Positions 857 to 34,397 of a stretch of DNA of 36,946 nucleotides are shown one piece after another. Position numbers and translations under genes: made by a program. The notes beneath the pieces are model-generated. The model was not told the DNA's origin and made no database searches. It saw nothing but the letters and a program-made list of their open reading frames with translations. Within the stretch, counting starts at the first letter, position 1; each line of letters opens with the position of its first letter. The stretch covers positions 1 through 36,946 of the forward strand of contig JAJFLE010000062.1 of assembly GCA_021772835.1 (NCBI GenBank). The letters are read 5' to 3'. This DNA comes from Mariprofundus sp. (lineage in GTDB: Bacteria; Pseudomonadota; Zetaproteobacteria; Mariprofundales; Mariprofundaceae).

Positions 857-1576
857 ATGATTTGTGACACGGATATGAAAAGAGACATTCTCATCGTTGA
901 AGACAACGCCGACCTTGCCAGCCTGATTCAGCTCCATCTGGTTGATATCAACTGTACTGCTGATATTGCCAAAGATGGAGCTGAAGCGCTGAGGAAATAT
1001 CAGTCCAAACAGTACGACCTGATCATTCTGGATATTATGCTTCCGGTCATGGATGGCATCAGCCTGTGCCGTAAATTTCGCGAAGATCAACGTTATGTAC
1101 CCATTATCATGCTGACCTCCAAATCATCCGAGCTCGACCGTGTGGTTGGTCTGGAAATCGGTGCCGATGATTACATGACCAAGCCGTTCAGTATCCCCGA
1201 ACTGCTTGCACGCATTAAAGCACGTTTTCGCGCAGCAGAGGCATTAAGCCAGACTGCAGAGCAGGAACCACAGCAGCTGCTCGCAGGTGACATGGTCATC
1301 GACCTGCAAAAACGTCAGGTCATCATTGCTAATGAAGAGATCACACTCACTGCCAAGGAGTTCGATTTACTCGTCCACTTTGCAAAAAAACCGGGCAGAG
1401 TATTCACCCGCACCCAATTACTGGATCAGGTTTGGGGTTATCAGTTCGAAGGTTATGAACACACAGTGAATACGCATATCAATCGCCTGCGACAGAAAAT
1501 TGAAACAGATCCGGCTAAACCACGCTATATTCTGACCGTATGGGGCGTTGGCTACAAATTTAACGAGCAATCATGA
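857..1576 (+). CDS. OmpR/PhoB-family DNA-binding response regulator
   Basis: Encodes 239 residues. Residues 8-122 are a CheY-like receiver: acidic pair E15-D16, phospho-acceptor D59 in LIILDIMLP, conserved Thr/Ser in MLTSKS and Lys in MTKPF. Residues about 140-236 form the winged-helix DNA-binding domain, with the typical ending VNTHINRLRQKI and RYILTVWGVGYKF. It should be phosphorylated by the kinase encoded immediately downstream (the genes overlap by 4 bases) and act as a transcription factor. An internal ATG at 875 (MKRDILIV) lies closer to the usual family N-terminus and may be the true start; the upstream ATG at 857 follows a weak AGG. The kinase has a periplasmic sensor loop, so this is not the classical PhoB-PhoR pair. 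The signal is unknown. Confidence 0.92.
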   Translation: MICDTDMKRDILIVEDNADLASLIQLHLVDINCTADIAKDGAEALRKYQSKQYDLIILDIMLPVMDGISLCRKFREDQRYVPIIMLTSKSSELDRVVGLEIGADDYMTKPFSIPELLARIKARFRAAEALSQTAEQEPQQLLAGDMVIDLQKRQVIIANEEITLTAKEFDLLVHFAKKPGRVFTRTQLLDQVWGYQFEGYEHTVNTHINRLRQKIETDPAKPRYILTVWGVGYKFNEQS

Positions 1577-4689: not shown

Positions 4690-6624
4690 TCAACCTGGGG
4701 GCATATTAAACCCTATCTGCGGCATCGGACATGCCAGCGCATCACACACTGCCCGCAATAACTCAAACTCGTTCGCCCTGACCTGACCATCGGCCAGCAC
4801 GACCTCTACACAGGCTTTTACCAGACGTCGTTTAATCTCCGGTGTCGCCTTTTCAGCCTTGTTCAGAGCCTGATCCAGCACAGACAAGTCAGATTGCTTT
4901 AGTGATGGTTTAATGCCCGTCTGCCAGGCCAGCACATGTGACATGGCATGGGCAAACAGCTCATCCGGCTGTTCATGGCTACCCTCCCTGATCAGCATGG
5001 AAACAATAAGGCCCGCTTCATCAGCGATTTCTGCCGCCACGTCAAAATACACAGCAGCGGGTTTCACTTTGGCAAAAGCCGGATGCAGATGCCGAATCAA
5101 CATGCGGTGCAGCATGTATTCAAAGATACTCAGTTTGTCATCCGCTTTGATCAGAGCGGCAATGCACTGGCGAAACTGTTTGTACTGCGCACGAGAGAGC
5201 GACTTCAATGCCGGCATTAATAACTCCAGCAATGGTATACGCAGCTCAGCTTCAAGGGCTGACACGGTGGGTTGAATATCGAGCAGTTCGCGCAACACGC
5301 TGGCATCGGCGCTGGTTTCCAGCGCATTCAATTGTATGGATCGAACCGTTTTATCGTTATCGAGCAGCAGACCATAAACGACAGCGCGCGCAGTAAACGG
5401 ATCGTGTGCAAAACGGTGCAGGCGGGCCGGAATGTTGTCCAGCAGTGAAATACTCTGCTGCAGTGCATCGGCATCCGGCCGACCGACAGACTGCATCACC
5501 GTATTTACATACTGTGGCAACGGTTGTGCCGATATCTGCCCCGCCAGCGAAGAGATCGCCTCGTGCATTACCGAGGCACTACGACTGGCAGAATTGATAA
5601 CCTCAAAATGACCGGAAAAAGATGCATCAAGCCGTTTGATACGCTTTGCCAGCGGCGGATGTGTCGCCCACCAATCCTTGTTCTCCCAGGATTTGACTGC
5701 ATTGCCGAAAAAGAAGTGGCTGGTCTGCTGGGTGGCGCTGTGATTCACGCGACTACCACCTTTGTAACCACCGATCACCTTCAAAGCACTGGCTATGCCT
5801 GCAGGATTGCGTGTGAACTGTACAGCAGCAGCATCGGCGAGGAATTCTCTTTGTCTTGAAACCGCACGTTTGATCATATCGGCAAACACCGCACCGACAG
5901 TACCAACCAGAAAAATCAAAAAACCGATCAGGGCTATAGCCGGATGTGTGCCACGTTCACGGCTGACGCGATAACCGGAAGCGTTTCTGGCTGTCATCAT
6001 CACAATACCTGCATCGGAGATCAGTGTGATACCGAACAGCAGCCCCATCAGCCGCATTTTCAGTCGCGTATCACCATTGAGGATATGACTGAACTCATGC
6101 GCAATGACACCTTGCAGCTCATCACGGTTCAGCAGTTCAATCGCCCCGCTGGTTACAGCAATCACGGCATCGGAGTGCCCAAAACCTGCAGCAAAAGCAT
6201 TGATGCCAGGTTGGGACAACAGATAAAGTGGCGGCACCGGCAGCCCTGCAGCAATGGCCATCTCCTCCACCACATGCTGCAGACGTCTGAGCAGAGGGTC
6301 ATCCGTAACAGCAGGCACACGCTGTGCACCCAGCATCTCGGCTACAGCTGCCCCACCCCCCTGCTGCAACTGATATGTCCGGTAAAGACTACCGGAAGCA
6401 ACAATCATCATGGTTAAACTGATCACCCAGAGGAAACGCTCGAAATCCCAGAAATCGCGAGCCAACCACTCGCCCTGAGAAACAAACATCTGGCTGAAAA
6501 ACAGGCCGCCAGTAACAGCCAGATAGACCGATAGTACAATCAGAATCACTGCACAGGTGAACAACACCACCAGCAAGGAGGTATTGCGCCGCGCCTGCTC
6601 CTGATGAGCAAAAAAATCTTTCAT
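4690..6624 (-). CDS. M48-family membrane metalloprotease (HtpX-like) with long C-terminal extension
   Basis: About 644 residues from the preferred ATG at 6624; an upstream GTG at 6648 lies inside a repeat element and lacks a ribosome site. Two transmembrane helices (about 17-40 and 64-82) precede the peptidase domain. The zinc motif is HEFSH (H176-H180) followed by LNGD, and the third ligand is expected in the REFLADAAAV segment near residue 250. Further hydrophobic helices lie around 185-240. HtpX itself is about 290 residues; here some 300 extra residues follow, ending in a helical region (KACVEVVLADGQVRANEFELL) that resembles TerB/tellurite-resistance-type helices. The gene lies downstream of lemA, a known recurrent pairing of LemA with M48 proteases. 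Substrates are unknown; envelope quality control is likely. Confidence 0.88.
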   Translation of the reverse strand: MKDFFAHQEQARRNTSLLVVLFTCAVILIVLSVYLAVTGGLFFSQMFVSQGEWLARDFWDFERFLWVISLTMMIVASGSLYRTYQLQQGGGAAVAEMLGAQRVPAVTDDPLLRRLQHVVEEMAIAAGLPVPPLYLLSQPGINAFAAGFGHSDAVIAVTSGAIELLNRDELQGVIAHEFSHILNGDTRLKMRLMGLLFGITLISDAGIVMMTARNASGYRVSRERGTHPAIALIGFLIFLVGTVGAVFADMIKRAVSRQREFLADAAAVQFTRNPAGIASALKVIGGYKGGSRVNHSATQQTSHFFFGNAVKSWENKDWWATHPPLAKRIKRLDASFSGHFEVINSASRSASVMHEAISSLAGQISAQPLPQYVNTVMQSVGRPDADALQQSISLLDNIPARLHRFAHDPFTARAVVYGLLLDNDKTVRSIQLNALETSADASVLRELLDIQPTVSALEAELRIPLLELLMPALKSLSRAQYKQFRQCIAALIKADDKLSIFEYMLHRMLIRHLHPAFAKVKPAAVYFDVAAEIADEAGLIVSMLIREGSHEQPDELFAHAMSHVLAWQTGIKPSLKQSDLSVLDQALNKAEKATPEIKRRLVKACVEVVLADGQVRANEFELLRAVCDALACPMPQIGFNMPPG

Positions 6625-30162: not shown

Positions 30163-30184
30163 CTGTCACTAAACTGTCACTGTT
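30163..30184 (+). promoter_or_regulatory. PHO box (PhoB-binding direct repeat)
   Basis: CTGTCAC-TAAA-CTGTCAC at 30163-30180: two identical heptamers with an 11-base period, essentially the E. coli PhoB consensus CTGTCAT-A(A/T)A(A/T)-CTGTCA(C/T). A weaker third or fourth unit (CAGTCGC at 30196-30202) keeps the 11-base phase. A TAGCAT at 30203-30208 could be the -10 element. It lies 58 bases upstream of the ATG at 30239 and reads toward it. Confidence 0.75.
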
Positions 30185-30238: not shown

Positions 30239-30568
30239 ATGTTTCGTAAAACCCTCTTTGCATCACTGCTGGCGTTCTTGCCATTGTCCGGCCAAGCCTT
30301 GGCTGGTGAATATGTATATACAATTGACCATGGCACTCCCGGCGTGATTGCCAGCGAAAGTAAAATGGCGCGCATTGTCCTGATTGCTTCGGGTAACTGT
30401 GCGGCTATCCCCTATGAAGTGATTACTGACGGCGTAAAATCATTGAGCGGATCACTGAACTTAAGCAAACCATTGTCACTGCCACTGGATTTCACCACCA
30501 TAACACTGTCGTGCTCGATGGATGGGGTAAAAGCTGTTATCAATCAAAAGGATAAAAGCCTTTTCTAG
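30239..30568 (+). CDS. Small secreted beta-rich protein under a PHO box, unknown function
   Basis: Encodes 109 residues. A Sec signal peptide (FASLLAFLPLSGQALA, cleavage about residue 22) is followed by a mature protein of about 87 residues with alternating hydrophobic residues, as in a small beta-sandwich. It has two cysteines, C54 (SGNCAAIP) and C92 (LSCSMDG), which could form one disulfide. No family is recognised. An AGGAG site lies 8 bases before the start. The upstream near-perfect PHO box suggests induction when phosphate is scarce, so a role in phosphate scavenging or envelope change is possible; this is inference from the promoter only. Confidence 0.75.
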   Translation: MFRKTLFASLLAFLPLSGQALAGEYVYTIDHGTPGVIASESKMARIVLIASGNCAAIPYEVITDGVKSLSGSLNLSKPLSLPLDFTTITLSCSMDGVKAVINQKDKSLF

Positions 30569-30655: not shown

Positions 30656-30679
30656 CCATTCGGCAGGACAGCCGAATGG
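30656..30679 (-). terminator. Stem-loop after the 30-residue microprotein
   Basis: Perfect 9-base arms CCATTCGGC (30656-30664) and GCCGAATGG (30671-30679) with a 6-base loop, 8 bases beyond the stop of the minus-strand microprotein at 30688. It lacks a T-run on either strand, so it is a candidate factor-dependent terminator or 3' stabiliser. Confidence 0.5.
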
Positions 30680-30687
30680 GACGAGCT

Positions 30688-30780
30688 TTAGCTGGAAAGC
30701 AGATCCATCACTATCATCAGGCCTACGATAATCAGTAGGCCGATGATAATCTGGAAACGCTCAAACCATGTCCTGCACAT
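30688..30780 (-). CDS. 30-residue membrane microprotein under a PHO box
   Basis: A frame of 30 codons plus stop. A strong GGAGG site (30787-30791, plus-strand CCTCC) lies 6 bases before the ATG. The N-terminus MCRTWFERFQ is basic and aromatic with one cysteine (C2), followed by a long hydrophobic helix IIIGLLIIVGLMIVMDLL and a tail of two serines. It should be a single-pass inner-membrane peptide with N-terminus in the cytoplasm. A PHO-box direct repeat lies 43-64 bases upstream in the same orientation and a perfect stem-loop follows the stop, which together argue for a real gene. The function is unknown; small phosphate-starvation membrane peptides often modulate a larger transporter, kinase or lipid enzyme. 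Confidence 0.65.
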   Translation of the reverse strand: MCRTWFERFQIIIGLLIIVGLMIVMDLLSS

Positions 30781-30822
30781 AGGCTTCCTCCAATCTTTCG
30801 AAATAAAAGAAGCTTAATCAAA

Positions 30823-30844
30823 GTCTATGACAGACTCATGACAT
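30823..30844 (-). promoter_or_regulatory. PHO box upstream of the membrane microprotein
   Basis: On the minus strand: ATGTCAT-GAGT-CTGTCAT, two heptamers with the 11-base period of PhoB sites and one mismatch to CTGTCAT. Ten bases after its end comes TAAGCT, a weak -10 candidate. It faces the microprotein start at 30780. Confidence 0.65.
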
Positions 30845-32536: not shown

Positions 32537-32590
32537 AACCGACTTGTAACACCGGAAAGCAAAAGTGAAAAGCCCCATCTCATCATTCAC

Positions 32591-32634
32591 CTGTCATTCG
32601 CATGTCACGTTGTTGCAATCAGCGTGTCATGAGC
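32591..32634 (+). promoter_or_regulatory. Array of PHO-box repeats upstream of the olsF-like gene
   Basis: Four units in exact 11-base phase: CTGTCAT (32591-32597), ATGTCAC (32602-32608), a degenerate TTGCAAT (32613-32619) and GTGTCAT (32624-32630). Three of four fit the PhoB half-site (C/A/G)TGTCA(T/C), as in promoters with tandem PHO boxes. It lies 36-79 bases upstream of the ATG at 32670 and within the shared region with the divergent TrpD2-like gene. Confidence 0.72.
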
Positions 32635-32669
32635 TTAACGATGCTTTGACAGGCACATGGGGGATTATC

Positions 32670-34397
32670 ATGTTTAATATCGAAACGCTCACCGCCGAGC
32701 ACCTTCCCGGAGTCCTGCATAAACCACCTGTAGTTCGTAAATCACTGCAGGCCATTCTGCGTCTCCTGTTCCATGAAAAAGAGCTGAATAGTTTTCAAGC
32801 GCGGTATCCGCACCTGAAAGGATTCGATTTCATTGATCAACTGCTTGAGCACTTTGATTTCAGCTACTCACTGCGTGGTGATGAACGCGAGCGTATTCCC
32901 TCTGAGGGACGTGTGGTTATTATTGCTAACCATCCCATCGGCACCCTGGATGCAGCCGTATTGATTCGACTGGTCGGAGAAATCCGTCGCGATGTTAAAG
33001 CCGTCAGCAATCAGGTGCTTTCAAGCATTGAAGCACTGACTCCCCTACTGCTCTCAGTAGACAACATGGGAGGGCACAGCAGCCGCGATCAGCTCAAAGC
33101 GGTGTATAAACATCTGGAGAATGAGGGCGCTGTTATTATTTTTCCGGCAGGCGAAGTCTCCCGCATGAGCCCAACCGGCATTCGCGACGGGCGCTGGAAC
33201 AGCGGTTTTTTACGCATTGCCTCAGCAACCCGCTCACCGGTTCTGCCAATGTATATCGATGGCCGCAACTCCATGTTTTTTTATGCGCTGTCTTTCTTCT
33301 CCAAACCACTGTCGACCTTGTGGCTGGTGCGTGAGATGTTCAAACATGCCCGTCGCTCAGTGCATATCTGCATAGGTAATCCGGTGACCTTCGATAGCTA
33401 TCAGCGTGCAAGTCTGCCGCTGAAATCGCGCGTCAAACTATTCCAACGGCATGTCTATCGCATTGGCAAGCAGAAGGAACCGGTTTTTGCCACCAGCCGG
33501 GCCATTGCACACCCGGAAGATCGCCAGCAACTCAGACGTGAGATCCATGAATGCCATCAACTTGGTGAAACACGTGATGGCAAGCAGATCCACCTGTTCG
33601 AATTCAATGCCGACTGCAGCATTATGCGTGAAATCGGGCGTCTGCGTGAGATTGCTTTCCGGGCTGTTGGTGAAGGCACGGGCCAGCGCCGCGATGTCGA
33701 TGCATTCGACCGCTTTTGTCAGCAGATTATTCTCTGGGATGAGAGTGAGCTGGAAATCGTTGGAGCCTACAGACTGCGCGACACACGCAACGACACCTTT
33801 GATGCACAAGCCCTGTATAGCGCAACGCTGTTCGACTTCCAACCTGAAATGGAAACCATTCTGCAACAGGGGCTGGAGCTTGGACGCAGCTTTATCCAGC
33901 CTCGCTATTGGGGAAAACGCAGCCTTGATTACCTCTGGTTCGGCATCGGTGCATTCCTGCGCGACAATCCCGACTATCGATATCTGTTTGGTCCGGTAAG
34001 CATCAGCAACAGTTATCCGGCCGCAGCCAAAGACATGCTTGTCTGGTTCTATACCACCTATTTCGGCTCAGAATCACAAAGGGTCAAGGCACGCCTTTCC
34101 TACCGACTCGATGCCGAAGCCACATTGCTCATGCAAGAGGTCTTTTGCGGCTCCGACTTTAAACGGGATTATATTACCCTGAAAAGTCGGCTCGGCCATC
34201 TGGGCTGCAATGTGCCAACACTGTTCAAACAGTACAGTGAATTGTGTGAAGCCGGTGGCGTGAGTTTCCTGGGTTTCAACATCGACCCGGAATTTGCCAA
34301 CTGTGTGGATGGACTGGTCGTGCTTGACCTGGACGAGTTGAAAGCATCGAAACGTTCGCGGTATATAGATTCGGACGAATCAAAACACATTGCCTGA
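32670..34397 (+). CDS. olsF: OlsF-like bifunctional acyltransferase (ornithine/aminoacyl lipid synthesis)
   Basis: 575 residues from the ATG at 32670 (GGGGGA site 5 bases upstream); the open frame extends to 32565 through the PHO array, so the longer form is rejected. Residues about 75-270 are a PlsC-type glycerolipid acyltransferase: NHPIGTLDAA (H88, D94, the HX5D form seen in this subgroup), then IIFPAGEVSRMSPTGIRDGRW. Residues about 300-500 are a GNAT/hemolysin-like domain (IHLFEFNADCSIMREIGRLREIAFRAVGEG; LELGRSFIQPRYWG). This two-domain layout is that of OlsF, which N-acylates ornithine with its C-terminal part and O-acylates the product with its N-terminal part to make phosphorus-free ornithine lipid. 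The PHO array fits lipid replacement in phosphate limitation. Other amino acids (lysine, glutamine) as head group cannot be excluded. Confidence 0.82.
   Translation: MFNIETLTAEHLPGVLHKPPVVRKSLQAILRLLFHEKELNSFQARYPHLKGFDFIDQLLEHFDFSYSLRGDERERIPSEGRVVIIANHPIGTLDAAVLIRLVGEIRRDVKAVSNQVLSSIEALTPLLLSVDNMGGHSSRDQLKAVYKHLENEGAVIIFPAGEVSRMSPTGIRDGRWNSGFLRIASATRSPVLPMYIDGRNSMFFYALSFFSKPLSTLWLVREMFKHARRSVHICIGNPVTFDSYQRASLPLKSRVKLFQRHVYRIGKQKEPVFATSRAIAHPEDRQQLRREIHECHQLGETRDGKQIHLFEFNADCSIMREIGRLREIAFRAVGEGTGQRRDVDAFDRFCQQIILWDESELEIVGAYRLRDTRNDTFDAQALYSATLFDFQPEMETILQQGLELGRSFIQPRYWGKRSLDYLWFGIGAFLRDNPDYRYLFGPVSISNSYPAAAKDMLVWFYTTYFGSESQRVKARLSYRLDAEATLLMQEVFCGSDFKRDYITLKSRLGHLGCNVPTLFKQYSELCEAGGVSFLGFNIDPEFANCVDGLVVLDLDELKASKRSRYIDSDESKHIA

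Follow-up and report, generated by a model that had tools for sequence, protein, structure and literature searches.

The window, a stretch of 36,946 nucleotides from a contig of a Mariprofundus sp. (Zetaproteobacteria), encodes on its minus strand a 30-residue peptide (MCRTWFERFQIIIGLLIIVGLMIVMDLLSS) whose 30-codon frame is, on comparative evidence, very likely a real gene and which belongs to a new family of ~30-residue single-helix proteins, found only in Mariprofundus as far as searched. The gene is preceded by a PHO box in the right orientation and at the right spacing (Table 1), which by its sequence places it among the putative members of the Pho regulon, and we are inclined to regard its product as a PhoB-induced single-pass inner-membrane microprotein modulating a larger membrane protein by helix packing. 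At 30 residues, the peptide is short enough for gene finders to miss.

Table 1. Features of the peptide gene and its neighbours (window positions)
Feature	Position	Strand	Evidence or remark
30-codon ORF, product MCRTWFERFQIIIGLLIIVGLMIVMDLLSS	30688..30780	-	ATG at 30780, stop 30688-30690; open frame, genus-wide family members, low dN/dS, single predicted helix
Shine-Dalgarno GGAGG	30787..30791	-	6 nt ahead of ATG
PHO box TGTCAT-GAGTC-TGTCAT (TGTCATGAGTCTGTCAT)	30827..30843	-	12/12 consensus, half-sites kept in 5 closest orthologues
Stem-loop between convergent genes	30656..30664/30671..30679	.	9/9 complementary, loop 6
109-aa protein	30239..30568	+	signal-peptide-like N-terminus by inspection; convergent with peptide gene
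PHO box of 109-aa gene (TGTCACTAAACTGTCAC)	30164..30180	+	58 bp before start
olsF, bifunctional ornithine lipid synthase	32565..34397 (longest frame; family match from 32670)	+	NF052615, 829.6 bits, cut-off 620
PHO box ahead of likely olsF start (TGTCATTCGCATGTCAC)	32592..32608	+	pattern search

The frame and its conservation

An earlier, sequence-only reading of this DNA had described the locus correctly to within a few bases, and the 30-codon frame with its GGAGG site is confirmed. The PHO-type repeat (period 11) and its orientation were also borne out, with 46 nt between the 17-mer and the ATG instead of the 43 bases given there. The perfect 9-base stem-loop that it noted after the stop is present and is not common to the orthologues; as a T-run was sought 3' of the hairpin in the sequence and none was found, and as the structure is not conserved among orthologues, its identification as a terminator was rejected.

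Used alone as a query against 100 related genomes, the 30 residues matched frames 86%, 72%, 70% and 69% identical in four genomes of the same genus (E 4e-10 to 8e-8), besides weaker matches, two of them in its own genome. Rather than the stops or frameshifts by which the sequence-only reading proposed to recognise a spurious frame, the five closest orthologues (those of its own genome, G017, G020, G016 and G008) show differences that are mainly synonymous, with pairwise pN of 0.09-0.25 and pS of 0.40-0.96. The dN/dS ratio is 0.08-0.22 in eight of the ten pairs, which are rough figures from simple Nei-Gojobori counts over 30 codons, and is not computable for the own-G016 and G016-G008 pairs because synonymous change is saturated. 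In the closest orthologues, conservation extends jointly to the frame, a purine-rich ribosome site and the PHO box, so that, at the level of sequence comparison, the putative phosphate-starvation microprotein has withstood the test first suggested for it.

Distribution and conserved residues of the family

Profiles built from 15 and then from 24 members were run over 78 genomes of the class and 398 genomes from the phylum. In the search of the latter, the family is present at E 0.001 in 16 of the 23 Mariprofundus genomes and has no member at this threshold in the other seven, and the genome of the window holds four members below E 1e-8 (the window peptide on C59, C57:26197, C20:2140 and C70:845). 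As the profile contains the members found, its E-values for them are not independent, and the single-sequence search constitutes the independent evidence. None of the genomes searched outside the genus has a match below E 1e-4; at E 0.001, one of 375 phylum genomes has a match (G213, E 9e-4, inside a 645-aa frame), and the class search returned G043 of another genus (E 4.4e-4 with profile A1 and 0.0016 with A2, inside an 835-aa frame), both of which are taken as chance matches.

Five members were scanned against Pfam and two against NCBIfam. No Pfam family was matched over its cut-off, the sub-threshold matches including PF23689 (YldA-like), the only profile returned for the window peptide (residues 7-28; 13.6 bits vs a cut-off of 27, E 0.079), and Synaptobrevin for one other member, both of which were rejected; the NCBIfam scan gave no match. 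The analysis therefore adds a conserved microprotein family without a Pfam or NCBIfam match over cut-off among the members scanned.

Among the 24 aligned members, W5, R8 and Q10 are each kept in 17 (position 10 being K in a further four), G14 in 20 and L21 in 18, position 26 is D or E in 22, and the columns from about residue 11 to 25 are mostly hydrophobic. Clustering of the conserved positions on one helix face is borderline (p 0.052). AlphaFold2 (16 rows) predicted one helix over residues 2-29 (mean pLDDT 91.7, pTM 0.44), and this single hydrophobic helix is, in the model, long enough to span a membrane. The basic end of a membrane helix faces the cytoplasm (positive-inside rule), and the N-terminus would accordingly be cytoplasmic. 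Cys2, singled out in the sequence-only reading, occurs in one of the 24 aligned members and is not conserved.

A hydrophobic stretch (KLQLYAVLGFILVIVVLLELFNR) inside a 505-aa frame of the same genome as the window (L150, C32:9631-9699) is weakly like the microprotein helix (E 0.033), and a stretch in a 487-aa frame of G020 (L151, G020:C5:103341-103409) is similar to it (E 0.012); mimicry of a sensor helix was set aside, as both values are too weak.

PHO box and promoter classes

The pattern TGTCAYN5TGTCAY has 10 matches in the genome of the window vs one for the reversed control, and 8-13 matches in each of seven genomes vs 0-2 control matches. The best match within 150 bp upstream was scored for 29 family members with 300 shuffles each: 11 members score 11 or 12 of 12 (p ≤ 0.01), whereas scores of 7-9 (p ≥ 0.07) were obtained for the other 18. 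These eleven PHO-class copies lie in eleven genomes, one in each, and the box-to-start distance is 44-64 nt in the ten for which the true start was used. Of 213 control ORFs of at least 100 aa, taken from the window and from loci L058-L084, four score 11 or more: the 109-aa neighbour, an olsF gene, a gene of G010 that is glyQ-like by inspection and has its upstream region in common with a family member, and an ORF of 100 aa that is probably spurious.

When the five closest-orthologue loci are aligned, the half-sites TG(T/C)CA(T/C) and TGTCA(T/C) stay in register in all five while most of the surrounding leader has diverged, the half-sites of G008 having one mismatch. Conservation at the distal upstream end of the alignment has a different source: in G017, G020, G016 and G008 the sequence there enters a divergent gene, identified as YbjQ in G017 and similar in appearance in G020, G016 and G008. 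In four of the five loci, a hexamer resembling a -10 box (4-5 of 6 letters) lies 8-10 bp past the half-sites; of the six PHO-class members outside this set, G007 alone has a good one (5/6, spacing 9), the other five having 3/6. No sense-strand sigma-70-like promoter rises above shuffles in any of the 10 PHO-class members scanned, out of 11 (p at least 0.2 each), as is expected of PhoB-dependent promoters. The members of G006, G011 and G009, with a PHO score of 11, have three tandem half-sites by inspection.

Several observations count against the PhoB reading. The -10 hexamer of the window gene is weak (4/6 letters at spacing 4); the second half-site in G003 and G010 is the variant TGACAC; the 12/12 site of G010 faces the other way, toward the glyQ-like gene; and five genomes with family members have no PHO-class copy. 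The best PhoB candidate of the genome of the window (G000:C1:7505-8173) also counts against it, scoring 233.5 bits, below the TIGR02154 cut-off of 296.2. A PHO box at the beginning of a Porin_O_P gene is about 1 kb away from this candidate. No TIGR02154 match over cut-off was found in the eight genomes searched, where the best candidates score 230-250 bits. The response regulator of the window (857-1576) was rejected as PhoB, as it is below the PhoB cut-off and is better matched by the MtrA model, also below the cut-off of that model.

Nine of the remaining 18 members contain a -10-type box (CTATAAT or CTATAAG) 33-38 nt ahead of the start, some of them in genomes that also have a PHO-class copy; C57:26197, C20:2140 and C70:845 of the genome of the window are among these paralogues. 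This -10 box was picked by eye and then searched as a fixed pattern, without a shuffle control of its own, and a full sigma-70-like promoter rises above shuffles (p<0.05) in only three of the nine. G020:C8 is a further copy with a -10-type box, beyond the 29 members scored, and nine of the 29 contain neither box. The control logic of the family would be one of paralogues split between a phosphate box and other promoters. Sigma-S control of the -10-box class was dropped, as TIGR02394 had no match over cut-off in seven genomes.

Neighbouring genes

The 109-aa protein matches no Pfam or NCBIfam family over cut-off, and one scan, which reaches close relatives only, placed its relatives at 11 loci whose records are labelled Mariprofundus, Mariprofundaceae or unclassified Zetaproteobacteria. 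The peptide adjoins the 109-aa gene at six of the 11 named loci. The two genes are convergent in the genome of the window, G017, G020, G016 and G008, and divergent in G006, G011 and G009; the ORFs listed within 3 kb of the PHO-class copies of G007 (on a contig of only 3 kb), G003 and G010 include no 109-aa-like gene. The five named 109-aa loci without the peptide have no PHO site of 11 or more within 1.5 kb, and the M. micogutta copy (L115) has no PHO box of its own. At the other end of the window, a 110-aa frame on the minus strand (143-475) begins like a lipoprotein and continues with numerous KMMKDD repeats that are nearly identical.

Proposed function and alternative explanations

Comparison of related sequences establishes coding conservation, a PHO box co-conserved in the closest orthologues, a paralogous family limited to the genus as far as searched and a single PHO-driven copy in every genome that has one; induction, topology and partner we infer. 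When phosphate is short, PhoB~P would bind the box and RNA polymerase would be recruited to a promoter that lacks a good -35 element. The product would insert in the inner membrane as one helix, its basic N-terminus inside, and the conserved Gln10, Gly14, Leu21 and acidic residue 26 may pack against a larger inner-membrane protein (a sensor kinase, transporter or enzyme), whose activity would be changed by this packing. Paralogues under other promoters may supply the same kind of partner helix in other conditions. Because the iron oxyhydroxides made by Mariprofundus bind phosphate, a shortage of phosphate plausibly belongs to the way of life of this genus. It is also conceivable, though we doubt it, that the family consists of lineage-specific interchangeable helices docking on one shared membrane target, the promoter (PHO or plain -10) picking the helix that is present; the phosphate-specific copy would then swap in during starvation and tune the shared target. 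If true, this would amount to a modular, promoter-encoded assignment of helix modulators to stresses.

It is very improbable that the frame is open by chance and that the PHO box belongs to something else: short ORFs are common, and the better PHO site of G010 faces the opposite way, but the frame is conserved with a low dN/dS, and the single-sequence query alone retrieved four orthologues at E 4e-10 to 8e-8. Alternatively, the peptide may serve a respiratory or transport complex as a small subunit-like helix, much as CydX and KdpF do, with one copy PhoB-driven so that the complex is re-tuned in phosphate shortage. We consider this unlikely, even though a single helix of this size would suit such a subunit, nine of the 29 copies have the TATAAT-type -10 box and no PHO box, and two of these (G008 and G012) are near genes that are cytochrome b/c1-like by inspection, since the copies stand alone in varied contexts and not in the operon of one complex, and seven of the 23 genus genomes are without a member at E 0.001. 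Type I toxins are typically small hydrophobic peptides with several intergenic copies per genome, and a small hydrophobic peptide in four copies in its own genome is toxin-like in this respect. A membrane-active type I toxin whose message is held down by an antisense RNA is nevertheless improbable, as an opposite-strand promoter-like site rises above shuffles in none of 25 members (p<0.05; lowest 0.06; 100 shuffles each), a search of eight sources returned no Rfam antitoxin RNA, and the PHO or -10 box near the start suggests a short leader.

The position of olsF about 1.9 kb from the peptide gene, with a PHO box of its own, raises the question of whether the peptide is a helper in membrane remodelling within the ornithine-lipid pathway, working with OlsF as phospholipids are replaced. 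Consistent with such a role, a weak family member of G002 (E 0.0014) has olsF at a distance of about 0.8 kb, and a PHO score of 11 or more occurs just upstream of seven of the 12 olsF loci of the genus. Yet OlsF was detected in 11 of the 23 genus genomes and was not found in G008, G016 and G020, each listed as 99% complete, nor in G007 and G009 (the latter 70% complete), all five of which keep a PHO-class peptide, and no PHO site scoring 11 or more was found for olsF of G017, which shares the neighbourhood of the peptide gene. As an obligate partner OlsF was rejected, since it was not found in genomes that keep the peptide; the case for this nearest lipid enzyme as the partner is weakened because it was not detected in three of the five closest-orthologue genomes, and we hold a helper role to be of low probability.

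Comparison with known small regulators

The proposed PhoB-induced modulator has its best analogue in E. coli YoaI, which is described as PhoB-bound and PhoB-dependent in expression (PMC10294691) and, in a meeting report, as a 34-aa protein reported to activate EnvZ-OmpR (PMC11853020). YoaI is like the peptide in being small (34 aa) and in having one hydrophobic stretch, and its activation by PhoB is what is proposed for the peptide. In the E. coli K-12 record, the yoaI PHO box (TGTCATCAAACTGCCAT) scores 11/12 and lies 50 nt before the start, compared with 44-64 nt in the family. YoaI differs, however, in having no detectable homology to the family (profile score -0.8 bits, E 0.14 in a two-sequence search). 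Judged by its layout, the peptide probably works like YoaI. Such a layout without detectable homology, in a lineage distant from E. coli, suggests repeated recruitment of small helix regulators to Pho regulons.

MgrB-type regulators are stress-induced single-pass proteins acting on a membrane sensor. A peptide modulating a sensor would act as they do, the likeness drawn being one of mechanism; MgrB itself is described as exerting feedback on PhoPQ (PMC7808668). DUF1127 small proteins (Agrobacterium, and E. coli YjiS) are described as binding PhoR (PMC12501420) and would thus be small and tied to phosphate control, as is proposed for the peptide. DUF1127 is absent from the Pfam matches of the five peptides scanned and from the NCBIfam matches of the two scanned. 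Among the literature matches listed, as judged by titles and term counts without supplementary files, there was no study on the Mariprofundus Pho regulon or on small membrane proteins in this genus; one match appears to be on Zetaproteobacteria (PMC12607638), and another mentions Mariprofundus once (PMC4325964).

Other PHO boxes and minor observations

Elsewhere in the genus, PHO boxes lie ahead of genes for Porin_O_P (26.5 bits, cut-off 20.9), DUF47, cNMP-binding and EAL/GGDEF proteins; the Porin_O_P, DUF47 and olsF boxes supply a Pho context that favours the PhoB reading. Counting against it, exact matches to the pattern without a clear gene behind them occur at L127, at L131 (11544 and 12888) and at L132 (7047), and the matches on C32 are, by inspection, in coding-like sequence and not promoter-like. 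A group II intron (RF02001, 125 bits) at 7922-8095 of L058 in G017 is the sole Rfam match of the eight sources searched. On contig C5 of the genome of the window (L128, ~5852-5998), two tandem PHO boxes (5769-5796) are followed by a 48-aa acidic ORF (MFNDDLDLSKIMKCYAQ...), which has an AGGAGG site and is 66 bp downstream of the first box; this ORF is a second candidate Pho microprotein.
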